Shown one piece after another: positions 35,584-62,182 of a stretch of DNA of 64,000 nt. The translations under genes were made by a program, and so were the position numbers. Source of the stretch: Lachnospiraceae bacterium (GTDB taxonomy: Bacteria; Bacillota; Clostridia; Lachnospirales; Lachnospiraceae); assembly GCA_017521605.1 (NCBI GenBank), contig JAFXCD010000041.1:39175-103174 (forward strand), written 5' to 3'. The stretch's first letter is position 1, and every line of letters begins with the position of its first letter. Under the pieces are notes generated by a model. That model was not told the DNA's origin. It did not search any database and saw only the letters and a list, made by a program, of their open reading frames with translations.

Positions 35584-35961
35584 ATGGAGATTGCGAAGGT
35601 AGAGGATTATGAACTGGAAATGTATATTGCGAAAATCATGCTGGACATGGGTGTGCCGGCCCATTTAAAGGGATACCATTATCTTAGGGAGGCAATTATG
35701 CTTTCTGCAAGGAATATGGAGTTAGTAAGTAGCGTGACGAAGCTGTTGTATCCAACAATTGCCAAACACTTTAAAACAACGGACCAAAAGGTGGAGAGGG
35801 CTATACGAAATGCCATAGAGGTATCCTGGGTCAGAGGTAATACAGATTCTTTTGAAGAGGTTTTTGGTTATTCTGCCTTACAGGGAAAAAAACGTCCTAC
35901 AAATAGCGAATATATATCACATATAGCGGATAAGCTACGATTGACTATTAAAGCCATGTAA
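35584..35961 (+). CDS. Stand-alone Spo0A C-terminal DNA-binding domain
   Basis: The 125-residue protein corresponds to the effector domain of the sporulation regulator Spo0A and nothing else. It has MGVPAHLKGYHYLREAIM, the LYPTIAKHFKTT helix-turn-helix part, the recognition-helix region KVERAIRNAIEVSW, and the closing PTNSEYISHIADKLRL. The receiver domain with its phosphorylated aspartate is absent and there is no upstream sequence for one. It could bind 0A-box-like DNA without phosphorylation. It has a GAAAGGGG site and ends before a strong terminator, so it is transcribed apart from the glycan genes that follow. Confidence 0.88.
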   Translation: MEIAKVEDYELEMYIAKIMLDMGVPAHLKGYHYLREAIMLSARNMELVSSVTKLLYPTIAKHFKTTDQKVERAIRNAIEVSWVRGNTDSFEEVFGYSALQGKKRPTNSEYISHIADKLRLTIKAM

Positions 35962-36096: not shown

Positions 36097-37107
36097 ATGA
36101 TTGTGTTGGCCTGGATTTTGTTGATAGGTGCCCCTATCCTTTTGGGATTGGGTGTTATGACAATAATTGATTGGAGAAGTGAACGCAGATTTATTGGATT
36201 TGCGGATTGTTTTGTGTGCGGTTTTTTGGGATGTATCGGTATTACACAGATAGCACATTGCCTAGGACTGTTTGGTAAAGTATCTTTGAAGATGACAGGG
36301 AAAATCTGGTTGGTACTCTTGGTAAGCTTTACCTTGCTCATGGCGGTTGTGGGATTATCGAGGATTTGGAAAAATAAGTTCCAAAATAAGGAGATTTTAC
36401 AGCGTTCTGTGGTGGAAAAGGGTCTTCCTATAATTGTTTTGGGGATGTTTTTCCTGCAGAGCTTATATGTTTTTTGTAGGAATCCTATTACTATACCGGG
36501 GGATATCATACCGGAAACTGTACAGAGTTTTTTGGCACAGGATGGAATTTATCAGGTTATGCCATTAACGGGAGATCAAAGTGAGTTAGGAATGCCCTTG
36601 CGATATACTATATTGTGTTTGCCAACTTTGTATGCAGTAATAGCGGATATATTTAAAGCGGACGCAAGATTAGTGATTTATCATTTGGTTCCGGTTGTAG
36701 TTCTGGGAGCATCTTATTTGACTTATTTCCGCTTAGGTGAAAGCTTGTTTGGGAAAAGCAGATTAAAGGAGTGCTACATTTTTTTGTTGGCGGTGGGTAT
36801 ATTGTTTTTATTCTCTGATCAAGCAGTTTTTTTAGATGGTTATGGAGCATTACATGCCGGATATATGGGGACATCCATTCGTAATCTGGTATTGGTTCCG
36901 TATGTTATAAGCGCTATGCTGGATAGAAAATACTGGAAAGCGATTCTTTGTATATTAGCGGAAGCTTGTATCGCATGGACCTTTTATGGCTTTGGTGTAT
37001 GCATTGTGATTACCATGGGTATGCTGTTCTTAGATATCCTGGAACATAAGGTTCCTTGGATAGGAAAAATGCTGCAAATCTTTTCTGATAAGGAGGAGCA
37101 GGCATGA
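36097..37107 (+). CDS. Multi-pass membrane protein of unknown function
   Basis: The protein (336 residues) has about eight hydrophobic segments and no motif I recognise. Its place at the head of the glycan operon and its polytopic form suggest a role in polymerisation, ligation or modification of the glycan, but a Wzy or flippase assignment cannot be supported. A TTG 21 bases upstream is possible, but AAGGAGA fits the ATG at 36097. It overlaps the next gene by four bases (ATGA), so the two products probably act together. Confidence 0.72.
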   Translation: MIVLAWILLIGAPILLGLGVMTIIDWRSERRFIGFADCFVCGFLGCIGITQIAHCLGLFGKVSLKMTGKIWLVLLVSFTLLMAVVGLSRIWKNKFQNKEILQRSVVEKGLPIIVLGMFFLQSLYVFCRNPITIPGDIIPETVQSFLAQDGIYQVMPLTGDQSELGMPLRYTILCLPTLYAVIADIFKADARLVIYHLVPVVVLGASYLTYFRLGESLFGKSRLKECYIFLLAVGILFLFSDQAVFLDGYGALHAGYMGTSIRNLVLVPYVISAMLDRKYWKAILCILAEACIAWTFYGFGVCIVITMGMLFLDILEHKVPWIGKMLQIFSDKEEQA

Positions 37108-38000
37108 GTATGGTGTGGAATTGTATGGAACGGGCATGGGAAGGTGCAGTACGCTATATGAGTCAGAATCATTTGATTGTTATTCTGGCGACAGTGCTTT
37201 TAGTTTTATGGTTGATGGAGAAGAAAAATGTTACTACCGGACAAAATAGAGTTCTGGTTTATAGTTTATTGATGATGTTACTGTTGCTTTGTCCAATAAC
37301 AGCAGCAGGAGTTATGATTTATCAGACGGGATTTTATGATTATGAATGGGCATGGAGTATGGTTCCCTTAACCATAATAATCGCATATGGTTTTGTGTTA
37401 TTGTGGACTCGGAAGGCTTCACGAAAGTATAAAGTGTTATTGGCTTTGGTTGTTTTGAGTATTGGCTGTCTGTGCGGAAATCAGGGACAGATACAAAGGG
37501 TAGCAGCTGAGGAAAGCGAGGAAAGGGCAGACACAGGAGAAATTATGCAGTTACTGGATTCCCGGAATATACAAGAGAAGCTTGTGGTGTGGGCGCCAAG
37601 AGGGATAATGCAGGAAATGCGTCGCAGGGATGGACATATTTTACTGGTATATGGGCGTGATATGTGGGATGAAAAAGCGGGAGCCTATGATTACGAGGCA
37701 TATAGCCAGGAGTTAGAAGAAGCGTATCTTTGGATGGAAAAGGGAACAGAATATTGTAGATTGACAGTAGGACATGATAAACCTGAAAAAGCGTTGGAAA
37801 CTTTTGTTAAGGAAGCCGGATGGGATACAGAAGCTAAGCAACACATACGAAGTATCTTGCAGGCAGGAACCAATTTGATTGTGTTGCCCAATTTGTTAAG
37901 TGATTATGTGGGGAAGAACTTGGAGGAGCTGGCAGAAGCGGAAGGAAAAGTACTTCAGGAAGCATATACGCAAAGATATATCATATATGTGATACGCTAG
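37104..38000 (+). CDS. Membrane protein of unknown function with soluble C-terminal half
   Basis: The 298-residue protein has four hydrophobic segments in the first 130 residues and then a hydrophilic half with no recognised motif. Translation is coupled to the preceding membrane protein through ATGA overlap. The pair could once have been one long membrane protein with an outer domain, but no frameshift evidence supports a broken gene: both starts and the overlap look normal. Confidence 0.7.
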   Translation: MSMVWNCMERAWEGAVRYMSQNHLIVILATVLLVLWLMEKKNVTTGQNRVLVYSLLMMLLLLCPITAAGVMIYQTGFYDYEWAWSMVPLTIIIAYGFVLLWTRKASRKYKVLLALVVLSIGCLCGNQGQIQRVAAEESEERADTGEIMQLLDSRNIQEKLVVWAPRGIMQEMRRRDGHILLVYGRDMWDEKAGAYDYEAYSQELEEAYLWMEKGTEYCRLTVGHDKPEKALETFVKEAGWDTEAKQHIRSILQAGTNLIVLPNLLSDYVGKNLEELAEAEGKVLQEAYTQRYIIYVIR

Positions 38001-46045: not shown

Positions 46046-48211
46046 ATGAAAAAAATTCTATTAGGTATCCTGTCAATTGTGCTGGTAGGAGCTATGGTAA
46101 TGTCTCCGGCACACACATATGAATCAAAAGCTTTTACGGAAGAGGAAGCAGAATGGATTGCAGAGGCAAAATCTGTTCTGTATGATATGTTGAAAGAAAA
46201 AGATGTGACAGCGGTTGTGTATCTTGCGGATCAGTATTCGGTAAAGGCAGAAGCATCTGAAGATAGTAAAACTATTATAAAGGTACCCAGTGGACAGTCT
46301 GTTCGGATACAGGATGTGGAGCTGACAGAAGAGTATGAAGCCTGGGTGAAGGTGAGTTTTGCAAGACAGGAGCAGGAATATGCTGGTTATGTACAGCGAA
46401 AGAATCTGGCCTGTTCGGATGAGCTGTTTTTAGAGTGGGAAATGAATTATGGCATGAATCCGGGAGCCTATGCAATGATGTTTGCGTTGGGCGAAGAGGC
46501 AGGTCCCCGTGTTTATGAGGATATTGAGCAATTCCCGGCCAGCTATAAAGAAGCGTTGACAGCTTTGAAGGAAGCGCATCCCAACTGGGTGTTTGTAAAG
46601 ATGGATACCGGTTTGGATTGGAATACCGTGGTGGCAGAGGAATTAATGGGTGGTCGAAGCCTGATTTCTGCTTCGATGGGTGGATACCTACAAGAAGGTA
46701 AATTCAGTAATGGTTGGTCCTATGCCACAGAAGAAGCTTTGGAATACTATCTGGACCCCAGAAACAGCCTGAAGGAAAAGGAGATTTTCCAGTTTGAGCA
46801 GTTGACCTTCAATGAGTCTTATCATATGAATTGTGAAGCTGCAGTGCAGAGCTTTCTGGATAATACCTTTATGAAGGGGAATGTACCCCAGACAGTGATG
46901 ACCTATGCTCATGTATTCTGGGCCATTGGTAAGGAACAAAATATCAGTCCCTTCCATCTGGCCAGCCGTGTATACCAGGAGCAGGGGCAGGGAACCTCTC
47001 CACTGATATCCGGTACTTATCCGGGATACGAGGGATATTATAATTACTTCAATATCGGAGCCAGTGGAAAAACCGATCAGGAAGTTATCGAGAATGGATT
47101 GGCTTATGCAAAGGAGCATAATTGGTATGAGCCTTACTACTCACTATATTATGGTTCTATTATCATTGGTTCCAATTATATTGCAAAGGGGCAGGATACC
47201 CTGTATTTGCAGAAATTTGATGTGGATGACAGTAATAACGGACTGTTTTGGCATCAGTACATGCAGAATATTACTGCACCCACCAGTGAAGCCAGAAGTA
47301 TCTACAAATTGTATGAGGAAACCAATTCGGTGGACAACCTGTTTGTATTTAAGATTCCGGTATATAACAACATGCCTGAAGCAGCCAGTCCCATGCCGGA
47401 AAACTCTGACAGAGTGATTCTTTCTACTCCGGAGGGGTACGGGGAGGCTGTTGTGTATGTGGACGGAATCCCCTATGCAGCAGAGACAAGAAATGGCTAT
47501 ACCATAGCAAGAGGTGCTGGTCTGGAAGGCAAAACTGCTATTATGTATCAGTATGATGGGGCAGGTATCCCGATAGGAATGTCTGTGTGGACCTTGGAGA
47601 ATGCCGGAAACTACTATAAAGCTACTGAGGTGGAAGGGTTGAAGGATTTGCTGACCTATCATGGATTCTCAGTACGAATAACAGGAAGAGCCGGAATACG
47701 CTTTAAGACAGGTATCGGAACAAGCATGAGAGAACAGCTTTTGGGTGACGGAATCTCAGGATATCGATTGAAAGAATACGGAACACTCGTTATGAATAAT
47801 GCCAATCGAGGAACCTATCCCATGATTAAGGGAGGCGAAAAGGTGGCACAGGGTATTGCTTATGGAATGGCAAGTGATGGAAGCTTAGTAGATAATATTT
47901 ATGAGACTGTAAATAATCGATATCGATTCACATCCGTATTGGTTGGAATGCCTGCGGAACAATATAAAACGGATTTTGCGTTTAGAGGTTACACGGTACT
48001 CACAAAGGATGAGGAAGAGCTTATTTTATATGGTCCCATTGTGTATAGAAGTATTTATACATTATCGGAACAGGCACTTTCCTTGAATTTGTATCAGGAA
48101 GGTTCGGCAGCATGGAGTTTCTTAAAACAAATAATAGCAGATGGAGATAATCTATCCCAGAATGCGACACAACCAGGGACTGCCAATGAGGGCACAGGGG
48201 CGACAGAATAA
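46046..48211 (+). CDS. Secreted SH3-domain N-acetylglucosaminidase
   Basis: A 721-residue exported protein: signal peptide (residues 1-24), a bacterial SH3-like domain (about 55-122), a glucosaminidase domain (about 255-395; VYQEQGQG with Glu312 as the probable catalytic acid, then YNYFNIGA), and a C-terminal region of about 300 residues without a recognised fold. It should cut peptidoglycan between GlcNAc and MurNAc outside the cell. Its place inside a glycan operon suggests wall opening or remodelling during glycan attachment. Confidence 0.85.
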
Positions 48212-48261: not shown

Positions 48262-49923
48262 GTGATTATGAAAAGAAAAAAAGTAATAAGTATGATTTGT
48301 ATAATGTCCATGGCAATGACTATGTCAGGCTGTGGTGTAAAGAACCTTATGAACTCAAGGGAAGAAGCGCAGCCGATTATTGTGGAACAGGAGAAGGTGG
48401 AAGTACAGGAAGAAGAACCGGTGCAGATACCGGATACTCAATACAATGCAGAAACTGAGCAGAATGTAGATTTTAAGACTATTGCCAGGCTATATGTACA
48501 AAATCAGCAAAAGAAAGAAGCAAGGGATATTCTGGAAGCAGGATATCAACTGGAGCAGGATGCGGAAGTTTATCAGATGTTACAGGAGCTGACGGTGAAT
48601 GCTGCAGAGGAAGAGGAAATGGCTGCACAGCTGGATTTGCTTATTCAGAATCTTGATATTCCGGAATATTCCAATGAAAGCATAAGTATGCTGTTTTCCG
48701 ATGAATGGTTTCAGGCTATGAAGCCGGGCACCAATAAAGGAATAAGAAGTTATTATAGAGAAAAGGGAGATACCACCCTTTACTTAGAGGTGGGCTTCAA
48801 TGAGAAGAACCAACGCATGACTTCTATTTGGAAATGCAAGGGAGAAGAGATACTGGTTATCAACCAGACAGCAGATTCCATACAAAGCTTAAAAACCGGT
48901 TTAGTAAACGGCAAATATCAAGGTGAGTTTGAAATGTGGACCTGCGTAGCTTCTGCCGGGGATGTGTTTCATGAAGAAGGCACCTTTAAGGATGGGCTCT
49001 GGGTAGGGTCTTATACTGCAGAGGTAAAGTGGGGAAAGGCTCCTGCTGATATTATGTCTCTTTGGATGATGAAGGAAGATATGGAATTCGTGACCTACAA
49101 GGGAGATTTCGGAGCAAGTGGACGTACCGCATTGAAACAGCCGGAAGCCACATCGGAGCAGGCAGACAAAACCGTTGTATATGCCTACACTTCTGATAAG
49201 AAGAATTATTTATTTTTGAATGCTGAGGAAAGTGCGTCAGATTATGTATTTAGTAATCTGACCATGGGGATGCCGGAATACCCGGCCTTTGAAAAATATG
49301 AACCGGTACCGTCTAATCAGGGTGATCAGGTTATAATATTAAACAAGACAGTAGCCCTTTCTGATTTGCAGGTGAGAATCTACGAAGGGGATGTAGAGGT
49401 ATATGACGGCAGTAGTTGGATAGCAGTAGGAAAGGTAAATCAGGAACTGTTGGAGGAGCCGAAAGAGAGTGAAGGTGAGAAGAAGGAGATTTATGCAAAT
49501 CGAGGAGAAGGCAAAGTATTAGAGCCGGAAGCAACAGCAACACCCAAGCCTACAGAAAAACCGAAACCCACGACAACACCAAAGCCCACGGCAACCCCAG
49601 TACCGACGCCGGCACCAACGCCTGTACCGACACCGGCACCGACGCCTGTACCGACCCCTGAGCCGACACCGGCACCAACGCCTGTACCGACACCTGAGCC
49701 GACACCGGCACCGACGCCTGTACCGACCCCTGAGCCGACACCGGCACCAACGCCTGTACCGACCCCTGAGCCGACACCGGCACCGACGCCTGTACCGACC
49801 CCTGAGCCGACACCGGCACCAACGCCTGTACCAACCCCTGAGCCGACACCGGTGCCGGAACCTACAGCACCGCCTGCAGGTGGTAATGATACAGATGTGG
49901 AGTGGACTCCGGATATTATGTAA
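48262..49923 (+). CDS. Lipoprotein with TPR-like and MORN-like parts and a Pro-Thr stalk
   Basis: The 553-residue protein has a lipoprotein signal (lipobox MSGC, Cys24), a short helical repeat-like region (about 75-125), a middle region with [11 protein letters not shown] and [11 protein letters not shown] that resembles MORN repeats (about 210-255), and a C-terminal low-complexity stretch of Pro-Thr dipeptides alternating with Val, Ala and Glu (about 430-535). The stalk could span the cell wall or carry O-glycans. No function is established. The start may be GTG at 48262 or ATG at 48268. It follows the glucosaminidase by 50 bases. Confidence 0.78.
49600..49857 (+). repeat. 36-bp tandem coding repeat ([12 protein letters not shown])
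   Basis: GC-rich tandem repeats encode a 12-residue unit, about six to seven copies, with smaller 12- to 24-bp periodicity inside. Copies are near identical, with synonymous C/A changes (accgac / accaac), so copy number may vary by slippage. Confidence 0.9.
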
Positions 49924-52203: not shown

Positions 52204-52255
52204 TAAATGTATGCTCAAATAATTGTGCAAATAGTAAAGAGTGTGGAGAATAAAT

Positions 52256-53035
52256 GTGAGAGCGCTTAATGATATCAAAAAATATAGAAGTTATATATTA
52301 TATTCTGCTAAGTCGCAGTTAAAAGCAGAAGTTGCAAATTCGTATTTAAACTGGATATGGTGGATATTGGAACCATTTTGTTTTATGTTAATATACACAA
52401 TAATATTCGGTTATATTTTTGAGTCAGGTGAGCAGTACTTTCCGGTATATATATTTATCGGTAATACAATGTGGGCTTTTTTCAGTAAGACGCTGGCAGC
52501 AAGTGTGACAATGATACGAAACAATGAAACAATCATTGCAAAAGTATATTTACCTAAATATATATTATTAATGGTAGAAATGCTGGTAAATGGCTTCAAG
52601 ATGTTAGTATCATTTGGATTGACAGCAATAATGATGGTTATATTCCAGATACCCATCAGTTTAAATATATTATTTGTTATACCAATAATGATAATCTTTT
52701 TCATGGTGACCTTTGCATTTGGGGTTTTGTTAATGCATGGGGGAGTATATATTGATGATTTGGCACATATAATAGGTATTTTTCTGAATATGATGATGTA
52801 TTTTACAGGTATTTTCTTTTCAATAGAGAACAGAGTGCCGGAACCGATGTGTAGTATATTGGGAATCGGAAATCCCGTAGCGTTTTTATTAACATCAACC
52901 AGACAGGCTGTTATGTATAAAACAACACCGGATTTGGGTATTTTAGCAATTTGGTTTGTAGTTGCAGTAATCTTAGCTGTTATAGGTGTTACAGTAGTTT
53001 ACAAAAAAGAAAACACATATGTAAAGATTATGTAG
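52256..53035 (+). CDS. wzm: Polysaccharide ABC exporter permease (Wzm/TagG-like)
   Basis: The protein (259 residues) has six membrane segments and the ABC-2 layout of polysaccharide exporters (SQLKAEVANSYLNWIWWILEPF near the start). With the ATPase that follows, it would carry a finished lipid-linked glycan or teichoic-type polymer across the membrane. The start is a GTG: GTGGAG lies 7 bases before 52256, while a GTG at 52241 overlaps that site. Confidence 0.88.
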   Translation: MRALNDIKKYRSYILYSAKSQLKAEVANSYLNWIWWILEPFCFMLIYTIIFGYIFESGEQYFPVYIFIGNTMWAFFSKTLAASVTMIRNNETIIAKVYLPKYILLMVEMLVNGFKMLVSFGLTAIMMVIFQIPISLNILFVIPIMIIFFMVTFAFGVLLMHGGVYIDDLAHIIGIFLNMMMYFTGIFFSIENRVPEPMCSILGIGNPVAFLLTSTRQAVMYKTTPDLGILAIWFVVAVILAVIGVTVVYKKENTYVKIM

Positions 53036-53044
53036 AGGTGAATA

Positions 53045-53770
53045 ATGTCAGAGTATGCAATAAAAGTAAATGATGTATATTTATCATATTGTGCCAGAAA
53101 AGGTGTTTCTGTACGAAACCTTTTCAAGAAGAATGCTGTAGTAGAGCATGAATTTCAAGCACTCAAAGGGATTGATTTTGCCTTGGAAAAGGGAAAAATA
53201 TTAGGTGTTGTAGGTAGGAATGGTAGTGGTAAATCTACGCTGTTAAGAGCAATAGGGGGTATTTTCAGTGTTGACAAAGGTAGCATCGATTTGTGTGGAA
53301 ACAAAGTGTCACTGCTATCCATTGGTGTGGGGTTTAACTACTTGCTATCAGGAAGAGAAAATGTGATTTTGTCAGGTATGCTGACCGGTTTTACAATGGA
53401 TGAGATTGCTGCAAAAATGGATAGTATTATAGAGTTTGCAGAGATCGGAGATTTTATAGATAAGCCTGTGAATACATATTCCAGCGGTATGTATTCAAAG
53501 CTGGCATTTTCGTTGGCAACAGAATTAAATACAGACATTTTACTTATTGATGAAGTACTAAGTGTAGGTGATGAGCATTTTGCCAAAAAGAGCTACTGTC
53601 GTATGAAAGAGCTTATTAAGGACAAAAATCATACGGTTGTAATAGTGTCTCATAATTTAAATACTTTAGAGGAATTGTGTGATGAGATTCTGTGGATTCA
53701 TGATGGTGAGATGAAAATGATAGGGGCTCCGGAAACGGTATTGGAAGAATACAGAAAGTATATGAATTAA
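53045..53770 (+). CDS. wzt: Polysaccharide ABC exporter ATPase (Wzt/TagH-like)
   Basis: A 241-residue ATPase with Walker A GRNGSGKST (57-65), signature YSSGMYSKLAFSLA and Walker B ILLIDEVLSVGD, all typical of polysaccharide exporters. It lacks the C-terminal carbohydrate-binding domain found in long Wzt proteins, so it probably does not recognise a chain-end cap. It follows the permease by nine bases. Confidence 0.9.
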   Translation: MSEYAIKVNDVYLSYCARKGVSVRNLFKKNAVVEHEFQALKGIDFALEKGKILGVVGRNGSGKSTLLRAIGGIFSVDKGSIDLCGNKVSLLSIGVGFNYLLSGRENVILSGMLTGFTMDEIAAKMDSIIEFAEIGDFIDKPVNTYSSGMYSKLAFSLATELNTDILLIDEVLSVGDEHFAKKSYCRMKELIKDKNHTVVIVSHNLNTLEELCDEILWIHDGEMKMIGAPETVLEEYRKYMN

Positions 53771-53790: not shown

Positions 53791-54192
53791 ATGAATGTAG
53801 AATGGTTTTATGCACAGCAACATGGAGATGCAAGGGGGCAATTAGTTTCGTTGGAAGAGAATAAAGAGATTCCTTTTAATATAAAACGTGTCTACTATAT
53901 TTATGATACATTAGAAGGGGTGCGAAGAGGATTTCATGCACATAAAGAACTAAAACAATTACTAATTTGTATACATGGCACTTGTAAAGTGTTATTAGAT
54001 GATGGTTATGATAAAGAAATCGTATCTTTAGATGAACCTAACAAGGGAATATTTATTCAAAGCAATATTTGGCGAGAAATGTATGATTTTTCACCGGACG
54101 CCGTACTTTTAGTTTTGGCTTCGGAGATTTATGATGAATCTGATTATATTAGAGATTACGAACAGTTTATTAGATATGTGAAGGGTAACTAA
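53791..54192 (+). CDS. fdtA: dTDP-4-keto-6-deoxyglucose 3,4-ketoisomerase (FdtA/QdtA-like)
   Basis: The 133-residue cupin matches the FdtA/QdtA family: RGFHAHKELKQLL with His49 and His51, the pair used in catalysis, then GTCKVLLDDG. It moves the keto group of dTDP-4-keto-6-deoxyglucose from C4 to C3, ready for amination. FdtA (galacto product) and QdtA (gluco product) differ little, so the stereochemistry is uncertain. An FdtB-like transaminase lies two genes on, an acyltransferase four genes on. Confidence 0.87.
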   Translation: MNVEWFYAQQHGDARGQLVSLEENKEIPFNIKRVYYIYDTLEGVRRGFHAHKELKQLLICIHGTCKVLLDDGYDKEIVSLDEPNKGIFIQSNIWREMYDFSPDAVLLVLASEIYDESDYIRDYEQFIRYVKGN

Positions 54193-54200
54193 TATTACAC

Positions 54201-55676
54201 ATGAATGAGAAACTATTTAATAAGGATTTTGAATATAGAAGAACCAGGATATTAAAAAATTATGGGAAGATGAAACAACTTGCCGGTTACTATATTTCAA
54301 GAAATGATTGGGAACATGCACTTCAAACCATATTTGTTGCCAGTGGATATATGTATACTTTAAATCAGATGCAGTATGATGAAGAACTGGAAAATATGGT
54401 AATCCTTATAGCAAATAGTATCCTTGATGAAGTTTCAATATTGAATTATAGTTATTCCGATGAAACAGTAATATATTATGATAGTTTCGGAAGTGTTGAT
54501 AGAGGACTTACAAAAATATATTTAAAGGCATTGCAGGATTTGGGATATAAAGTGAAATATATATCCCCAATACAGAACGAAAAAATATTAGAAATTACGG
54601 AATCATTAGGTGTTTGTGAAATTTTATGCATAGAGGGCAATACGTATCAGGAACGAATGATTTCACTAAAAGAGATAGTGATGAAATCAGAAGCAAAGTA
54701 TGCATTTCTTTATATGACTCCGGATGATTTGGTGGCAACAGCAGTCTTTTCTTTGTTTAAGGGAGGACTGTTGCGTTTGTTGATTAATTTGACGGATCAT
54801 TCGTTTTGGGTCGGAAGAGTAGCCTGTGATATTATTATTAATTTTAGAGAGTTTGGTGCAAAGGTTTGCAGAGATTATAGAGGAGTTCCGGACGAGCAAA
54901 TAGCATATATACCATTTTATCCATGTGTTGTGGAAAATAAATATCAGGGATTAGAGTTTTCGAACAATAGTAATAAGCTTATATTTTCGGGAGGAGCTTT
55001 ATATAAGACCGAAAGCAGAGATAATCAATATTATAGGTTGGTAGAGGACATATTAAATAATTATCCGGATACTAATTTTTTGTATTTAGGAACCGGGGAT
55101 ACCGGGAAGATAAAAGGATTGGTTAAAAAATTTCCCGGAAGAGCTTGTTTTTCTAATGAACGAAGCGATTTTTATGAGATAATGAAACAGTGTACAATGT
55201 ATTTATCGACCTATCCATACAATGGTGGCTTGATGACTCAGTACGCATTGCTTGCTCAAAAAGTACCGGTGACTCTGGTGGCGCCGGGAATGGAGAGAGA
55301 GTTGTCTGTTCAGGATGAACAGAGTTTTTGGAATTTCGATTCTTATGACCAGTGTATGAAAGAGATTGACAGACTATTAAGAAACCCCGATTATCGTAAA
55401 GAAAAAGAAGGACAGTTAAAGCAATTTTTAATAGGTCATAAAGAGTTTTCAGAAGAGTTGAAGCATTTATTGGATTGTGGGAAATCCATACGTACAATAA
55501 GTACAAAGAGATATGAGTTTGATGGGTTTGTAAGGTATCCGTTAGAATATTATGAGGGAATAAAGTATTATAGATTATTTCTGCGGAAAAATAGTTTGTT
55601 TATGTTTAAAAAGTTTCCTGCGCAGTGTTTTTGGGGTGTGATAGGACTTTTAATAGAAAAAAAGTATAAAAAATAA
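54201..55676 (+). CDS. Putative GT-B glycosyltransferase, unassigned family
   Basis: The 491-residue protein shows no family I can name. Its first 80 residues are helical, followed by two Rossmann-like halves. The second half has IFSGGALYKTE, FLYLGTGDTGK and a late MYLSTYPYNGGLMTQYAL, which look like the nucleotide-sugar side of a GT-B enzyme. It sits between the ketoisomerase and the transaminase of amino-sugar synthesis, eight bases after one and 18 before the other, so it may transfer that sugar. Its codons are AT-rich. Confidence 0.65.
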   Translation: MNEKLFNKDFEYRRTRILKNYGKMKQLAGYYISRNDWEHALQTIFVASGYMYTLNQMQYDEELENMVILIANSILDEVSILNYSYSDETVIYYDSFGSVDRGLTKIYLKALQDLGYKVKYISPIQNEKILEITESLGVCEILCIEGNTYQERMISLKEIVMKSEAKYAFLYMTPDDLVATAVFSLFKGGLLRLLINLTDHSFWVGRVACDIIINFREFGAKVCRDYRGVPDEQIAYIPFYPCVVENKYQGLEFSNNSNKLIFSGGALYKTESRDNQYYRLVEDILNNYPDTNFLYLGTGDTGKIKGLVKKFPGRACFSNERSDFYEIMKQCTMYLSTYPYNGGLMTQYALLAQKVPVTLVAPGMERELSVQDEQSFWNFDSYDQCMKEIDRLLRNPDYRKEKEGQLKQFLIGHKEFSEELKHLLDCGKSIRTISTKRYEFDGFVRYPLEYYEGIKYYRLFLRKNSLFMFKKFPAQCFWGVIGLLIEKKYKK

Positions 55677-55694: not shown

Positions 55695-56795
55695 ATGAAA
55701 ATACCATATTTAAATTTAGCAACAATTCACGATCCGATTAAAGAGGAACTTAAGGAGAAGTTTAATCAAGTGCTTGATTCGGAATGGTTTATACAGGGTA
55801 CTGCCTGTACAAAATTTGAGGAAGAATTTGCAGCATATTGTGGTGCTAAATATTGTGTGGGTGTGGGTAACGGATTGGATGCGATTCGTGTTATTTTACA
55901 AGCTTATGGAATTGGCGAAGGTGATGAGGTAATTGTACCTGCCAATACTTTTATAGCAACTGTATTAGCAGTAAGCTATGTAGGAGCAACTCCGGTTTTG
56001 GTTGATGCAGATGAAAAGACTTATAATATTGATATTTCAAAAATAGAAGAAGCAATTACAGATAAAACAAAGGCCATTATAGTTGTACACTTGTATGGTA
56101 GAGTTGTTGATGTTAATGCTGTCAGAAAAATTGCAGATAAGTATGGTTTGAAAGTTATTGAGGACTCAGCACAGGCTCATGGTGCAGTTTGTGAAGGTAA
56201 AAGAACAGGTAATCTGGGAGATGCTGCTGCATTTAGTTTCTATCCGGGAAAGAATTTAGGCGCTTTGGGAGATGGTGGAGCAGTTACTACAAATGATAAA
56301 GCCTTGGCTGATAATATTAGAGCTATATGCACATATGGTTCTTTTGAAAAGTATAATCATCAGTTTAAGGGATGCAACTCCAGATTAGATGAGGTTCAGG
56401 CAGCACTTTTATCAGTAAAATTGAAATGCCTGGAAGGTTGGAATGAAGAACGAAAGAGTATTGCAGAGCAGTTCAATCAAAAAATCAATAATGATTTATT
56501 TGTACTGCCGCAAATAGATGATAGAGATGGTCATGTATTCCATATTTATCCATTATTATGTCAGGACAGACAAAAGTTAATTGCTTATTTGGAAGAGAAA
56601 GGAATCGGAACCAATGTACATTATCCTATTCCGATACCCAAGCAGGGAGCATATAAGGAAATGGTGCAGGATATGGTAAAGTATCCTATTACTGAAAAAA
56701 TATGTGCTAATGAGGTGAGTATCCCACTGTATCCTGGTCTGCAGCAGGAGCAGATTGATTATATTATCGACGCATTAAACGATTATAAGGGTTAG
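55695..56795 (+). CDS. fdtB: dTDP-3-amino-3,6-dideoxyhexose transaminase (FdtB/QdtB-like)
   Basis: A 366-residue DegT/DnrJ/EryC1 aminotransferase with the pyridoxal-binding Lys186 in [15 protein letters not shown] and the EDSAQAHGA motif. With the ketoisomerase encoded upstream it would aminate C3 to give dTDP-3-amino-3,6-dideoxyhexose. Its opening ([15 protein letters not shown]) is typical of the FdtB/QdtB group rather than of C4 aminotransferases. Confidence 0.88.
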
Positions 56796-56824: not shown

Positions 56825-59176
56825 ATGGGTAGAATAGCTGTTATAAGGGCTTTGGCTTTTATAAGTAGCATTATAGGACGTGTGATTGCATTGCCCTTTG
56901 TGGTATTGTTTCATATTGCGAGATTTGTGGTCAGGGGGATACGTGAATTAAGGCGTATCTCTCTGGAAAAGAAAGCAGATAAGCGGAAGCGAAAAAGGGA
57001 ACAAAAAGAATTACGTCAAAAGCGAAGAGAAGAAAAACGTCAGAAACGAAAAGAAGAAGCTCTAAAGAAAAAAGAGTATAAGGAAAAGCGAAAAGAAGAG
57101 ATTTTAGAGCAAAAGAAGCTACGTAAAGAACAAAAGCAATTGCGTAAAGAGCAAAAAAAATTACGTAAAGAGCAAAAACTACTTGAGTCAGAACAGCGGA
57201 AATTGATTAAGGAACAAAAACGTAAAGAGGCTGTAGAACGTAGAAAAGCAAAACAAGAAAATAAAAGGTTGCTAAAAGAAGAAAAGCTGAAAATACGGCA
57301 AGCCAGATTGCATGATAAAGCAGTTGAAAGAGAAGCTAAGAGGAAAAAAAGAGAAGAAGAACAGATAGCACGAATTAAGCGCTGGGAAGCATCTTGGACA
57401 GAACGTTTTGCGAATTCCTCCTTAAAAGGTAATAATTCATTATGGGCAGTAATTTTTAGAAAGATATACTGGGGCTGTCACTGGATACTTCAAAAGGGAT
57501 ATTGGGGTAGCCATTGGCTGTTTAGAAAGATATATTGGGGCTGCCACTGGATACTTCAAAAAGGCTACTGGGGTTGTCACTGGGTGTATAGAAAGGTATA
57601 CTGGGGCTGTCGATGGGTACTTCAAAAAGGTTACTGGGGTTGCCACTGGTTATTCAGAAAGGTATACTGGGGCTGTCACTGGTTATTCAGAAAGCTATAT
57701 TGGGGTTGCAGATATATAGTTCAAAAAGGATACTGGGTATGCCATGGTATTTGGCAGAAAGTATATTGGAAGTGTCGAATATTTGTTGAAAAAATATACT
57801 GGAAAGTACGTACATTGTACCAGAAATGTTATTGGAAAGTTAGAACAATATTTGAAAAAATATACTGGAAAATACATGGTTGGTTTAATAAGGTTTATTG
57901 GAAATTACGTGGATATTATAATAAAGTATATTGGGTTTATTATGCTAAGAGCCGTCAGTTATACAATGCACTTACAAAAAATGAGTATATGGATTTATTT
58001 TTTGTGTTTTTAAGAGGATATCTTAAAAAAGGTGGTATGCAAACGCAATGTCTTGCAATAATTGGTGTAAAGGAATATTTTGAAAAGCAGAAAAGTATTT
58101 CAGAATATCAAGTTATTGAAGCAGGAACAGAACGAGTAGTATGTTTGCCTGACTTTTTTGAAAAGAGTGAAGAGCAAATCGAAAAGTACAACTCGCCGGA
58201 TATTTATGTGGCTAGTATTGAGAATGTTGACTTGATTGGTGCAAGTAATGTAATTATAGCAAATGATAAGCTGTTGAATGACGCAGTTGCTGATGATAAA
58301 GAACAACGTATTGATATACGATATTCTGCAATCAAAAAAGTAATCAATAAGGTTGCTGTCATAGAGGATTATGATGTGGAAGACGTATTTGAAAAGGGTA
58401 TTTATCTGGTTGGAGCGGCCTCTTTTAATTACTATCATTTGGTGGTGGAAATCCTTTCCAGATTGACATTTGTAGATTATTTGGAAGAATATCGGGAATA
58501 TCCTATATTAGTAGATGAAGTGGTCATGCGTATTCCACAATTTAAGAGTGCATTAGATTGTATTAATCGTTATAATCATCCGATTATTGTGGTAGAAAAA
58601 GAGAAAAAATATCATGTTGAGAAATTAGTTTTACCTTCTTCAAATGTGTGGATGCCAACTAATTTATATAATCGAAATGATATTAGGGTAGATGATTTTT
58701 TGATTGCGGATTCTGTGTTGCATAATATCAGAAATGCTGTAGGAGTGTGGGAAGAGCGAGAACCCTGGAGAAAAATATTTATTTCAAGAAAGAATACTCA
58801 AGCAGTAAGATTAAGTAATGAAACAAAAGTTCGACAGATATTTGCAGAAAACGGATTTGAAATAGTATATACGGAGGAGATGACATTCCGCCAACAGATA
58901 GAATGCTTCGGACAGGCAAAATGTATTGTTGCCACATCAGGTGCGGCTTTGACAAATACAATATTCTGTCAGAAGAGTGCAATCATTGGATGCATTATAC
59001 CTTCGGAACATCGATTTTATATGTATTCCACGATTGCATATTTGTTGGGATTAAAACCCTTGTTTTTAGATGCTAAGATTACTGATAAAACAGCATATGC
59101 TGCAGCAGATACATTTGTGTTAGATGAAGGTTATGTAAAGCGATATGCGAAAAGAATTAACAATATGTTGAAATAG
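56825..59176 (+). CDS. Membrane-anchored GT61-like transferase with charged helix and YW hendecad repeats
   Basis: This 783-residue protein has four parts. Residues about 8-36 are hydrophobic, a likely membrane anchor. Residues 45-190 are almost wholly Lys, Arg, Glu and Gln, with five heptads of the type KKLRKEQ at 97-131, so probably one long helix or coiled coil. Residues 213-377 are fifteen 11-residue repeats K-x-Y-W-x6-x, mostly rich in Trp, Cys and His. Residues about 395-783 are a GT61 (DUF563) domain with NYYH (535-538), ISRK (653-656) and SGAALTN (705-711). The transferase part should add a sugar to the glycan made by the neighbours; the repeats have no known function. GAGGAG precedes the ATG. 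Confidence 0.82.
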   Translation: MGRIAVIRALAFISSIIGRVIALPFVVLFHIARFVVRGIRELRRISLEKKADKRKRKREQKELRQKRREEKRQKRKEEALKKKEYKEKRKEEILEQKKLRKEQKQLRKEQKKLRKEQKLLESEQRKLIKEQKRKEAVERRKAKQENKRLLKEEKLKIRQARLHDKAVEREAKRKKREEEQIARIKRWEASWTERFANSSLKGNNSLWAVIFRKIYWGCHWILQKGYWGSHWLFRKIYWGCHWILQKGYWGCHWVYRKVYWGCRWVLQKGYWGCHWLFRKVYWGCHWLFRKLYWGCRYIVQKGYWVCHGIWQKVYWKCRIFVEKIYWKVRTLYQKCYWKVRTIFEKIYWKIHGWFNKVYWKLRGYYNKVYWVYYAKSRQLYNALTKNEYMDLFFVFLRGYLKKGGMQTQCLAIIGVKEYFEKQKSISEYQVIEAGTERVVCLPDFFEKSEEQIEKYNSPDIYVASIENVDLIGASNVIIANDKLLNDAVADDKEQRIDIRYSAIKKVINKVAVIEDYDVEDVFEKGIYLVGAASFNYYHLVVEILSRLTFVDYLEEYREYPILVDEVVMRIPQFKSALDCINRYNHPIIVVEKEKKYHVEKLVLPSSNVWMPTNLYNRNDIRVDDFLIADSVLHNIRNAVGVWEEREPWRKIFISRKNTQAVRLSNETKVRQIFAENGFEIVYTEEMTFRQQIECFGQAKCIVATSGAALTNTIFCQKSAIIGCIIPSEHRFYMYSTIAYLLGLKPLFLDAKITDKTAYAAADTFVLDEGYVKRYAKRINNMLK
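57461..57955 (+). repeat. Fifteen tandem 33-bp coding repeats (K-x-Y-W hendecads)
   Basis: Each unit begins with a Lys codon and then x-TAY-TGG. Units 1-7 mostly alternate between KIYWGCHWILQ-like and KGYWGCHWLFR-like forms, giving a 66-bp higher-order period; units 10-14 replace the Gly at position 5 with Lys (YWKC, YWKV, YWKI, YWKL). DNA copies differ at many third positions, so the array is not freshly duplicated throughout. Confidence 0.93.
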
Positions 59177-59189
59177 AAAGGATAAAGAA

Positions 59190-60059
59190 ATGATTCTTGG
59201 TAAAAATAGTTATGTTGATGATAGTGCAATAATTGGAGAAGATGTGGTTATTGGTAACAATGTCACCATTCAGGATAATGTTGTAATTGGTGCCGGGAGC
59301 CAAATAAGAGATGGCGTTATCATTGGTGCAGATAGCCAGTTTGGTGAAAATACGTTTATTGATTATGGTACGATCATTCGTGAAAATGTAAAGGTTGGTG
59401 ACAACGCTTTTATTGGAGCAAGATGTATTCTTGGGGAGTATTTGGTTGATTTTATCCAAGCAAGGGATAAGCAGAAACATAGTACAGTGATTGGGGATAA
59501 TGCAGTTATTAGAAGTGAGACCATTTTATATGGTGAAAATAACATAGGTGATAATTTCCAAACAGGTCATCGTGTAACCATAAGAGAAAAGAGCAAGATC
59601 GGAAGAAATGTAAGAATCGGTACTTTGTCAGATATTCAAGGAGATTGTCTGATAGGAGATTATGTAAATATGCATAGTAATGTGCATATTGGACAAAAAA
59701 GTATTATCAAGAATTATGTTTGGATTTTCCCGTATGTTGTATTGACCAATGATCCTAATCCTCCTTCTGAACAGTTGATGGGAGTAACCTTAGAGGAATT
59801 TTCTATTGTTGCAACAGGAAGTATTGTTCTGCCGGGTAAGGTGATCGGAAGGGATGCATTAGTAGGTGCAGGAACCATAGTGAATAAAGATGTGTCTGAG
59901 GGAAAGGTTGCAGTAGGTAATCCGGTAAAAGAGTTGGGCGATGTGACTAATATCAAGAATAAAACAACAGGTGAACCAAGCTATCCTTGGCGTTATTATT
60001 TTGATAGAGGTATGCCATGGAATGGAATTGGTTATGATGAATGGGAAAAGGGAAAGTAG
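59190..60059 (+). CDS. Hexapeptide-repeat acyltransferase
   Basis: The 289-residue protein is built of many [IV]-G-x4 hexapeptides (IGEDVVIGNNVTIQDNVVIG onwards), forming a left-handed beta helix, with a late GAGTIVNKDVSEGKVAVGNPVKEL typical of sugar N-acyltransferases. The likely job is N-acetylation of the 3-amino (or 4-amino) dTDP-sugar made by the neighbours. It is longer than the usual FdtC/QdtC size, with an inserted stretch near residues 88-100. It starts 14 bases after the repeat protein. Confidence 0.83.
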   Translation: MILGKNSYVDDSAIIGEDVVIGNNVTIQDNVVIGAGSQIRDGVIIGADSQFGENTFIDYGTIIRENVKVGDNAFIGARCILGEYLVDFIQARDKQKHSTVIGDNAVIRSETILYGENNIGDNFQTGHRVTIREKSKIGRNVRIGTLSDIQGDCLIGDYVNMHSNVHIGQKSIIKNYVWIFPYVVLTNDPNPPSEQLMGVTLEEFSIVATGSIVLPGKVIGRDALVGAGTIVNKDVSEGKVAVGNPVKELGDVTNIKNKTTGEPSYPWRYYFDRGMPWNGIGYDEWEKGK

Positions 60060-60106: not shown

Positions 60107-62182
60107 ATGTTATCAAATACTCCTAAAGTGACCGTTGGCGTTATTGCTAATGATAATTATATTATAGACATGATTAATTCTATTTTGTTTCAAAATTATG
60201 GAAATATCGAATTGATAGTATCTATTAATCAGACTAGTGATGTTTCTATTTGCACAGTTTTTGATTGTATTAATTCTAATGCAAAAGATAATATTAATTC
60301 GATAAACATTAATTATTCTAAGGAAAAATTAGATGTTCAACATCATAGAGAATATATAGTTAATAATGCCACAGGGGATTATTTGATTGTACTAAAAGAT
60401 TATGAATCATTCTATACAGAGACTTCATTAACTGAAGTATTAAAAAGTTTCACATCGGATACAGATTATGTGGTGGGAAATACCGTTGTATATAACGAAA
60501 GTAATGAATATGAATTTGTGACAGACGTTTTAAGTGATTATGAAGCAAAGGAAGAATCATTCGATGTATCACGATATATGCATGTATTTCGAAGAGGAAT
60601 CAATGCGTTTACGGAAGGACTTCAATATGAAAAATGTAGTCAGCCGATTATGCGTTACAGAAAAGGTACATGTATTAGTAAAGAAGATACATTTTTGTTG
60701 GTAAATGATGAGTTACTTATTAATGATAAAAAATTTAATTTTCAAAATAATTTGCTTAATTTTACAAATTCAAATAAAATCTGGGAAATTATCAAAGATT
60801 TGGTTGGAGCAAATGATATCAGTAAGGAAGAAATATTTAATAAGATAAGTAAAGAAATAGAATATATTGTTGGAAAACAGAAAAATGGTTATTGGGATTT
60901 GACAGAAAGTGACATTTGCTATATTGCACACTTGCTTAAATTGAGAGAATTTATTAGTGATGATAATATAATTAAGAGAAGATTGAAAATATTATCATAT
61001 TATAGAAAAGTGCATAAGCAAATCACCAGAAAAATTCGCATTGTTTTTTTTGCGCAGGAATACGCAGTATGGCCTTGCATGAGGCCATTGTATGAAGCAG
61101 CACGTATTGATTCCAGATATATTACAGAATTGGTATTTGTGCCCTTTAACCATTATAATAAATCCAATGACGCGTATCAAGATTTAGAACTGTATAGAAA
61201 AGCTGGTTACGATATAAAAAATTATAGTGAATATAATTTGTGTCAGTCAAGTCCGGATATTGCTATTTTTGTAAAGCCATATAATTTTGTTCCTAAAGGT
61301 TTTTATATTGATGATATACACAAGGTTATACGTCGCTGTGTATATATTCAATATGGTATTATGATTGACTCAGAAGATAAAGAAATAATTAGATTGAGAT
61401 ATAAATTGCCAATGCAATATTTGGCTTGGTTTGTATTGGCTGCAGACTTGTGGGATTACAATGCCGCCCAAAAATATGGTTATACAAAGGGATTGAATTA
61501 TTTGAATGTTGGTTTGCCAAGATATGATGAGATACATAGGGTGAAGGAAAAAGACTATATTGAGGAGATTACCCCAATAAGACAACTGGCTAAAGGAAGA
61601 AAGGTTATCTTGTGGAATTCACATCATTCTATTGAGAAAGATGGTATGTTTGGTACATGGTTACAATATGGTGAATACATAATTAACTATATAAAGAACA
61701 CTCCTGATTTGTATTTTGTATGGCGTCCACATCCACTTTTTTTTGGTGCTTTAGAAAGAAATTTGGAAGCAAATAAAGAGGATAAAGGTGAATTTTGGGA
61801 TAGGATTGGTCAAATTGAAAATATATATTTGGATACAAGTTCCGATTATTTGCCGGCTCTATTAGTTTCGGATGCTTTGATTAGTGATATGTCTTCTTTG
61901 GTTAAAGAGTATTTATTGTTAGATAAGCCTATACTTTTAATGTTAAAGCGAGAAGATAGTTTGCCGAATGAAGACTTGAAGAATGTACTTTATTTAGTTA
62001 GAGAAGATGATGATATTGCGACTTTTGGTAAAATGATTATTGAAAATAAGGATTATAAAAGAGATATACGAAAGAAGTATTTATTGGATAATTACAATTC
62101 GGATAATAAGAAAACAGTGTCAAAACTATTATTGGATAAATTTGCGAAAGAGATAAAGGAAGAAGTAAAGGGTGATTTATAG
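60107..62182 (+). CDS. Fused degenerate GT-A plus TagF-like glycerophosphotransferase
   Basis: The 691-residue protein begins with a GT2-like half (KVTVGVIANDNYIIDMINSIL, about residues 7-150) in which the expected DxD metal site is not clear (LIVLKDYESFY). The C-terminal half (about 310-680) resembles CDP-glycerol glycerophosphotransferases: RRCVYIQYGI, WNSHHS, WRPHPLFF and SDMSSLVKEYLLLDKPILL. It could add glycerol phosphate or another polyol phosphate or sugar to the glycan. The DNA is very AT-rich compared with rmlB downstream. Confidence 0.75.
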   Translation: MLSNTPKVTVGVIANDNYIIDMINSILFQNYGNIELIVSINQTSDVSICTVFDCINSNAKDNINSININYSKEKLDVQHHREYIVNNATGDYLIVLKDYESFYTETSLTEVLKSFTSDTDYVVGNTVVYNESNEYEFVTDVLSDYEAKEESFDVSRYMHVFRRGINAFTEGLQYEKCSQPIMRYRKGTCISKEDTFLLVNDELLINDKKFNFQNNLLNFTNSNKIWEIIKDLVGANDISKEEIFNKISKEIEYIVGKQKNGYWDLTESDICYIAHLLKLREFISDDNIIKRRLKILSYYRKVHKQITRKIRIVFFAQEYAVWPCMRPLYEAARIDSRYITELVFVPFNHYNKSNDAYQDLELYRKAGYDIKNYSEYNLCQSSPDIAIFVKPYNFVPKGFYIDDIHKVIRRCVYIQYGIMIDSEDKEIIRLRYKLPMQYLAWFVLAADLWDYNAAQKYGYTKGLNYLNVGLPRYDEIHRVKEKDYIEEITPIRQLAKGRKVILWNSHHSIEKDGMFGTWLQYGEYIINYIKNTPDLYFVWRPHPLFFGALERNLEANKEDKGEFWDRIGQIENIYLDTSSDYLPALLVSDALISDMSSLVKEYLLLDKPILLMLKREDSLPNEDLKNVLYLVREDDDIATFGKMIIENKDYKRDIRKKYLLDNYNSDNKKTVSKLLLDKFAKEIKEEVKGDL

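Follow-up and report, generated by a model that had tools for sequence, protein, structure and literature searches.

To our knowledge, few repeat-number rulers on glycosyltransferases have been described, and the examples cited below differ in both repeat type and catalytic family from the protein reported in this study, a glycosyltransferase of family 61 (GT61) with an array of 11-residue units, encoded in a stretch of 64,000 nucleotides from a Lachnospiraceae bacterium (assembly GCA_017521605.1, contig JAFXCD010000041.1, positions 39,175 to 103,174; the whole stretch is called the window below and supplies all coordinates unless another locus is named). According to an excerpt of PMC4202792, the α-1,3-fucosyltransferase of Helicobacter pylori carries 2–10 copies of DDLRINY, after which two amphipathic helices follow, and the number of repeats determines how many O-chain units are glycosylated (stated, citing others, in an excerpt of PMC3858298). 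This enzyme (and β-1,4-galactosyltransferase) resembles the window protein as a surface-polysaccharide enzyme with a tandem repeat of variable number outside the catalytic part, but its repeat is seven residues long, acidic (DDLR(I/V)NY) and located towards the C-terminus, whereas that of the window protein is 11 residues long, basic and aromatic (KxYW) and N-terminal to GT61; the repeat units themselves are unlike by eye.

For the Klebsiella O-polysaccharides studied in PMC11231755, the excerpted text treats a coiled-coil ruler whose distal end carries a terminating enzyme as characteristic of assembly that depends on an ATP-binding cassette (ABC) transporter. WbdD and WbbB are like the window protein in belonging to an ABC-exporter locus and in having a long extension between the catalytic domain and the part associated with the membrane, but the enzymes there are methyltransferase/kinase, whereas the window protein has GT61, a presumed N-terminal anchor and a Trp/Tyr-rich extension. 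Membrane attachment by a basic amphipathic helix that also holds the pyrophosphate of the lipid-linked glycan is described for PglH of Campylobacter jejuni (PMC5792488, in excerpt), and MG517 likewise has an amphipathic helix for membrane attachment, partial truncation of which substantially lowers glycolipid synthesis (PMC6506492, in excerpt). The ruler helix of PglH is, like the neck proposed below, a basic, membrane-attaching segment of a glycosyltransferase, but it is a single internal helix without a tandem repeat, in a GT-B enzyme of another glycosyltransferase family. Amphipathic 11-residue repeats with basic residues and a proposed role at the membrane surface occur in apolipoproteins, α-synuclein and perilipins; we know of neither an invariant Trp nor a KxYW motif in them. 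The array shares with these proteins an exact 11-residue period, kept over 15 units without an insertion or deletion, and differs from them in matching no Pfam family.

Judged by its Pfam match, the window protein is an N-terminally extended member of the GT61 family: PF04577 (Glyco_transf_61) covers residues 536–720 (58430–58984) with an E-value of 3.7e-21 and a score of 76.3 bits against a cut-off of 27 (74.2 and 75.1 bits in the two orthologues discussed below), and it is the single domain at E ≤0.1. The NCBIfam search of the protein yielded no match above cut-off, and no solved relative was found by sequence at E ≤10, with a second search returning one chance match (E 0.89). From the N-terminus, the order is a hydrophobic stretch, a basic charged stretch, the array and GT61, laid out as follows.

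56825–59176, + strand: GT61 glycosyltransferase with a repeat neck, 783 amino acids (open reading frame; Pfam PF04577)
56825–56956, + strand: hydrophobic N-terminal stretch, residues 1–44, presumed to anchor the protein in the membrane; its C-terminal side is basic
56957–57394, + strand: charged Lys/Arg/Glu stretch, residues 45–190, partly LRKEQK-type heptads
57461–57955, + strand: array of fifteen 11-residue K-x-Y-W units, residues 213–377 (unit-by-unit reading)
57461–57724, + strand: units 1–8, YWG type, Cys at position 6 in seven of eight, partly in 66-nucleotide pairs; apparently the young zone
57758–57922, + strand: units 10–14, YWK type, with units 11–14 scoring highest against the units of the orthologue in genome G170
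57923–57955, + strand: unit 15, the last, at a near-fixed distance from the catalytic region and the sole unit in the orthologue of genome G634
57980–59176, + strand: C-terminal GT61 region, residues 386–783, 61–66% identical among the three orthologues

The presumed anchor includes a segment (residues 12–30) with a value of -8.9 kcal/mol on the octanol scale. The charged stretch, residues 45–190, contains 64 Lys/Arg and 31 Asp/Glu (net charge +33), lacks Pro and Gly, and includes a heptad-type tandem repeat of 21 nucleotides at 57106–57177. One and the same neck holds two adjoining repeat periods, the 21-nucleotide LRKEQK-type heptads and then the 11-residue units.

The count and coordinates given by the sequence-only reading, a model's annotation of the bare sequence that preceded this analysis, are exact: fifteen contiguous units of exactly 11 residues, all with K at position 1, Y at position 3 and W at position 4. 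Position 5 is G in eight units, K in five and V in two; position 6 is C in 9/15; position 7 is H in eight and R in six; and position 8 is W in 7/15. The full continuation G-C-H/R-W after YW, previously ascribed to most units, is confined to six of them (1 and 3–7). Units 1–8 are of the YWG type, mostly with Cys and a second Trp, units 10–14 are of the YWK type, and unit 15 retains KxYW alone; Pro is absent throughout. A run of YW in register at a spacing of 11 reaches 15 in the protein and at most three in 10,000 shuffles of the identical residues. At the DNA level, Tandem Repeats Finder describes the first part of the array best as a 66-nucleotide unit, i.e. a pair of 11-residue units (57455–57709, score 333), and the second part by weaker 33-nucleotide rows. 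DNA identity between units peaks within units 1–7, with units 1 and 3 equal at 31/33 bases and units 1, 3 and 5 sharing 27–31/33; across units 1–6, I or V alternates with G at position 2, which is Gly in four units of the array.

The array is real, coding and variable in length. Pairwise comparison of units 1–8 gives proportions of 0.62 for synonymous (pS) and 0.21 for nonsynonymous (pN) differences and a ratio of nonsynonymous to synonymous substitution (dN/dS) of 0.18, compared with 0.48 for units 9–14 and 0.24 for units 1–14, the unit pairs not being independent of one another; in units 2, 4 and 6 synonymous sites are saturated, which makes their ratio of 0.00 unusable. Since units 1–8 differ per site mostly synonymously, the frame is in use and the repeat is conserved as protein: codons drift while the unit is maintained, i.e. 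there is selection on the unit sequence. An assembly artefact, which the sequence-only reading had named as a way in which the array might prove spurious, is ruled out by the DNA divergence between units, by the predominance of synonymous differences in units 1–8 and by the occurrence of a second array in another genome, although the exact unit number could be off if the assembly was built from short reads, units 1, 3 and 5 being nearly identical.

That second genome, G170, belongs to the same genus, and a third one, G634, to another genus; a seven-gene order including the GT61 gene is identical in the window and in both of them. A recurrence of the array in related genomes, anticipated beforehand, is borne out by the eight units of G170; the protein of G634 has one unit alone. 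The part of the protein preceding the GT61 region measures 385 (window), 198 (G170) and 103 (G634) amino acids, while the GT61 region stays at 397–400. The N-terminal 40 residues of the window and G170 proteins are 55% identical (22/40), and those of G634 are 28% (10/36 aligned) and 20% identical to the window and G170, respectively. All eight G170 units keep W4, with K/R at position 1 and Y/F at position 3 (unit 1 begins R-I-F-W). From the last YW to the C-terminal region there are 17, 18 and 17 residues in the window, G170 and G634, and the only YW of G634 sits where unit 15 sits in the window.

The change from YWG to YWK along the array had been taken as a sign of two functional zones, but it is better read as history. 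The mean BLOSUM62 scores against the G170 units are 36.4, 31.0, 24.9 and 27.2 for window units 11–14, compared with 16.8–23.4 for units 1–9, 23.5 for unit 10 and 18.6 for unit 15; units 11 and 12 clearly lead the others, unit 13 only slightly. Because the K-type units score highest against G170 and the G-type units are most alike in DNA, the K-type zone near the enzyme is probably the older type shared with G170, and the Cys-rich G-type zone looks like a young amplification of 66-nucleotide pairs. Single units cannot be paired between the two proteins, since the in-register identity (4.67/11) is no better than that at shifted registers (4.33–5.20). The simplest history suggested by these comparisons would be one ancestral unit beside the domain followed by tandem growth on the anchor side, with loss of units from a longer ancestor as a possible alternative. 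Metal or disulfide chemistry, proposed on the basis of the Cys residues, is rejected as a conserved function of the array: the eight units of G170 have no Cys, and in window unit 2 Ser replaces Cys at position 6.

The array stands apart in the databases searched. Residues 213–377 match no Pfam family at E ≤10, 57395–57990 matches no NCBIfam family at E ≤1, and the best matches among PDB sequences are insignificant both for the array region (E 0.15, a chain whose name suggests a designed coiled coil) and for the N-terminal part of the G170 protein (E 0.41). The unit thus appears, by sequence comparison, to be without a described relative in these three collections, as had been surmised. Among the literature matches listed (titles and the beginnings of abstracts), none fitted a glycosyltransferase with an 11-residue, Trp-rich or undecapeptide repeat.

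A search of its own genome with the array gave a single match. A profile of the window and G170 proteins matched these two alone among 138 genomes of the genus (E ≤1e-10) and, among 397 sampled genomes of the family (E ≤1e-20), its own genome and G634 alone; no additional orthologue appeared among 195 relatives of G634 (G634 included). The two ABC genes and the FdtA-like, DegT and hexapeptide proteins of the shared gene order are 69–81% identical among the three genomes, the GT61 region, as listed above, less so, and a 491-residue protein 44–49%. A DNA pattern of three units was also run against overlapping sets of 138 genomes of the genus, 392 of the order, 311 of the class and 319 of the phylum, in a looser form for the genus (Y or F before W); such a pattern would miss other spacings and arrays with fewer than three perfect units, e.g. 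the single unit of G634. It matched 25/138 genomes of the genus, compared with 9/138 for a reversed control, so that most matches in the genus are near chance level: six overlapping sites lie in G170, five in G124 and one each in 22 other genomes, besides the array and one site at C41 in the own genome, G000. In the order, class and phylum samples, four, two and two genomes matched, own included, making five others in all. At the first matches in these 28 other genomes (23 of the genus plus five), another frame was open longer than the YW/FW frame in every case, none had Lys/Arg two residues before the aromatic one in all three units, and many had a stop; the YW frame is open over 741–786 residues in the window and 604 in G170, with the other frames at ≤88 and ≤73, respectively. 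Among the samples from genus to phylum, the K-x-Y-W array was found in its own genome and in G170 alone.

The three-unit pattern also hit at least 120 stretches in viral contigs; runs of at least three units in 192 loci made up 89 rows, the best 25 of which were examined, and in five viral loci checked the YW frame was open over 64–134 residues versus 475–810 in another frame. The array peptide pattern found no match in viral contigs. Scanning genome contigs with the whole protein returned loci of Chitinophagaceae and Rufibacter that match in the GT61 part alone (37%), in frames holding 0 and 1 YW, and in plasmid records the catalytic region has 15 matches of the GT61 type, none reaching 60% identity. 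Against 99 relatives, the whole protein has weak matches in 14, own included (the others at E 2e-6 to 1e-3). They lie in the GT61 part or in the N-terminal and charged stretch, apart from those of G059 and G026 (26% and 19%), which lie in the array and do not resemble true relatives. The array also matches a protein of a Streptococcus plasmid at E 4e-3, annotated as an RHS repeat protein; this was taken as chance.

What could such an array do? The explanation we favour, tentatively and with a confidence just short of even, is that it serves as a length-variable, membrane-interfacial, probably helical neck between the anchor and the GT61 domain that positions the latter. The aromatic and strongly basic units would fold mainly as a helix resting at the interface of the cytoplasmic leaflet, with Tyr and Trp seated in the interface and Lys, Arg and His contacting lipid phosphates or the pyrophosphate of a lipid-linked glycan; the neck would thereby tether the catalytic domain and orient it close to its membrane-bound, lipid-linked acceptor, and tandem duplication would alter the unit number from genome to genome. 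The cytoplasmic side is suggested by the use of nucleotide sugars and by the positive charge following the presumed anchor. Support for the neck comes from its place between a hydrophobic N-terminus and a GT61 domain, from the similar N-terminus and domain that flank eight units in G170, from the single unit in G634, both among the same seven genes, from the near-fixed spacing to the domain, from the interface energies, the net charge, the absence of Pro and the helical wheel, and from the precedents of PglH and MG517.

The affinity for the interface is stronger evidence here than the tests of amphipathicity. On the Wimley–White interface scale the window array reaches -41.5 kcal/mol over 165 residues with a net charge of +30, and none of 2078 overlapping segments from 52 other open reading frames of the window is as favourable (the 52 are plus-strand frames out of 70, with minus-strand and nested frames and the array's own dropped). 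The G170 array has -12.2 kcal/mol over 88 residues and a net charge of +18, with 30/2848 segments as low or lower. On a wheel with three turns per 11 residues, positions 9, 2, 6, 10 and 3, mostly nonpolar in both proteins, are adjacent, and the opposite side presents K1, position 5, H/R7 and Q/E11, together with the invariant W4 and the W8 of the G-type units; by wheel reading alone, positions 10, 2, 3 and 6 would fit a, d, e and h of a hendecad. The hydrophobic moment at three turns per 11 residues, assessed by shuffling columns, is notable on the Kyte–Doolittle scale in three of five sets, with p values of 0.031 (units 1–14), 0.020 (G-type units 1–8) and 0.047 (G170), against 0.089 for K-type units alone and 0.062 for these plus G170 (window unit 15 and G170 units 1 and 8 were left out, the scale values were entered by hand, and the p values are uncorrected for the many tests).

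Several observations speak against the neck as we picture it. In all five sets the same moment is non-significant on the Fauchere–Pliska (p 0.46–0.87) and Eisenberg (p 0.31–0.41) scales, partly because the invariant W4 lies on an otherwise polar side; with W4 set neutral, p is 0.035–0.11 on Kyte–Doolittle and still 0.06–0.47 on Fauchere–Pliska. The Fauchere–Pliska moment of the window array peaks at about 65 (best 65.5) and 164 degrees per residue instead of around 100, and the largest harmonic on this scale and on Eisenberg's is two or five turns per 11 residues, never three. A helix in the YWG zone is made less likely by Gly, which occupies position 5 in eight units and position 2 in four; only three members were found, one of them with a single unit; and an invariant Trp on the polar side is unexplained by a neck alone and calls for a partner (a second helix, a glycan or a carrier lipid). 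Of the earlier suggestion of a regular helix at the membrane interface, the interfacial part, which is extreme, has fared better than the helix, whose moment is notable on one scale alone; a mainly helical array is nevertheless our preference.

In the gene neighbourhood, five genes of the conserved cassette lie upstream of the GT61 gene and one downstream.

52241–53035, + strand: ABC-2 type permease of the cassette, probably Wzm-like (Pfam PF01061)
53045–53770, + strand: ABC ATPase of the cassette, 241 amino acids, probably Wzt-like (Pfam PF00005)
53791–54192, + strand: FdtA-like sugar isomerase (Pfam PF05523, E 1.4e-53)
54201–55676, + strand: protein of 491 amino acids with no Pfam match, probable glycosyltransferase (44–49% identity in three genomes)
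55695–56795, + strand: DegT/DnrJ/EryC1 aminotransferase, FdtB-like by position (Pfam PF01041, E 1.4e-120)
59190–60059, + strand: hexapeptide-repeat transferase, FdtC-like by position (Pfam PF00132)

FdtA, a DegT aminotransferase and a hexapeptide acyltransferase make up a known route to dTDP-linked 3-acetamido-3,6-dideoxyhexoses. Given the gene content of the cassette and this Fdt-type sugar route, the most likely role of the GT61 enzyme is to add a sugar to a polysaccharide that the ABC system exports. Further out, both flanks contain glycosyltransferases, sugar transferases, epimerases or dehydratases. The 491-residue cassette protein is present in all three genomes and diverges faster than its neighbours; together with it, the products of 37104–38000 (298 residues), 46046–48211 (721) and 48262–49923 (553) have no Pfam match at the thresholds used. 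Downstream, 60107–62182 encodes a weakly GT2-like (glycosyltransferase family 2) N-terminus and a match of the CDP-glycerol glycerophosphotransferase type, and a protein similar to it by eye is encoded in G634 some genes past the cassette (L065, 17436–19475). Close to the glycan cluster, a 125-residue open reading frame (35584–35961) consists mostly of a Spo0A C-terminal DNA-binding domain (residues 15–118), with no receiver domain within the frame.

In G170, by eye and by length, there seem to be two nearby ABC exporter pairs (L062, 13217–14767 and 15849–17957) with ATPases of 241 and 435 residues, the long C-terminal part of the latter possibly binding glycan, and a 696-residue open reading frame (L062, 2737–4827, minus strand) combines, by eye, a multi-spanning membrane part with a P-loop kinase-like domain (GDSGVGKS), an unusual fusion.

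The most attractive alternative, though one that we regard as unlikely, is a ruler or spacer in which the charged heptads and the array together form a long, possibly dimeric coiled-coil stalk setting the glycan chain lengths that can be reached. An ABC-exporter cassette (with ABC2_membrane and ABC_tran genes, as at WbdD-type loci), heptad-like repeats before the array, a pre-domain part of changing length next to a steady domain region, and the Klebsiella and H. pylori precedents, each drawn from the excerpts cited above, are all consistent with it. Exporters that read a terminator have an ATPase with an extra C-terminal glycan-binding domain. The cassette ATPase is short, however, and in the Pfam search its sole match above cut-off is ABC_tran (15 others fall below theirs), with no C-terminal glycan-binding domain; moreover, we know of no GT61 enzyme acting as a terminator, and coiled coils are usually far less aromatic than this array.

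Less probable still, to the point of being doubtful, is a track in which the Trp at position 4 of every unit forms a ladder that holds the polymer or its undecaprenyl carrier near the active site. W4 is invariant in 15/15 window and 8/8 G170 units, though it lies opposite the aliphatic face and is flanked by Lys and Arg/His, and it should therefore contact something other than the partner of that face; on the other hand, the array matches no carbohydrate-binding family of Pfam, nor any other, and G634 manages with one unit. We give equally little credence to a β structure, in which each unit would be a strand or half of a hairpin (22-residue pairs) in a β-solenoid or meander. The many β-prone residues, the alternation of I/V and G at position 2 and a strand-like harmonic of five per 11 residues that exceeds the three-per-11 one on Fauchere–Pliska in all five sets would suit such a fold, but this harmonic is never significant (p 0.093–0.68) and would also arise from a helix that is nonpolar on two faces; the unit junctions carry Lys and then I, V, L or C in 11/15 window units, which makes for poor turns; and the equivalent neck of G634 reads, by eye, as a helix. 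The least probable explanation, a tolerated linker that grew by slippage and does no more than join anchor and domain, accords with the rarity of the array (G170 being the sole other seen), its freely varying length and the single unit of G634, but is at odds with the invariance of K, Y and W throughout the window array, with their retention as K/R, Y/F and W in all eight units of G170 and with the low dN/dS among units 1–8, even if the value is higher among units 9–14.

The array thus gives an enzyme of a known family a neck built of repeats, for which there are precedents in principle, not in sequence. The boldest reading, to which we attach little probability, is a new kind of evolvable ruler: a Trp-laddered helix lying on the membrane, the unit count of which, altered by tandem duplication, would set the reach of GT61 along the lipid-linked glycan. 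If this were true, the number of units would set the length or the decoration pattern of the ABC-exported polysaccharide. The occurrence of one, eight and 15 units within one conserved gene order makes an effect of unit number on membrane binding or glycan length directly testable.

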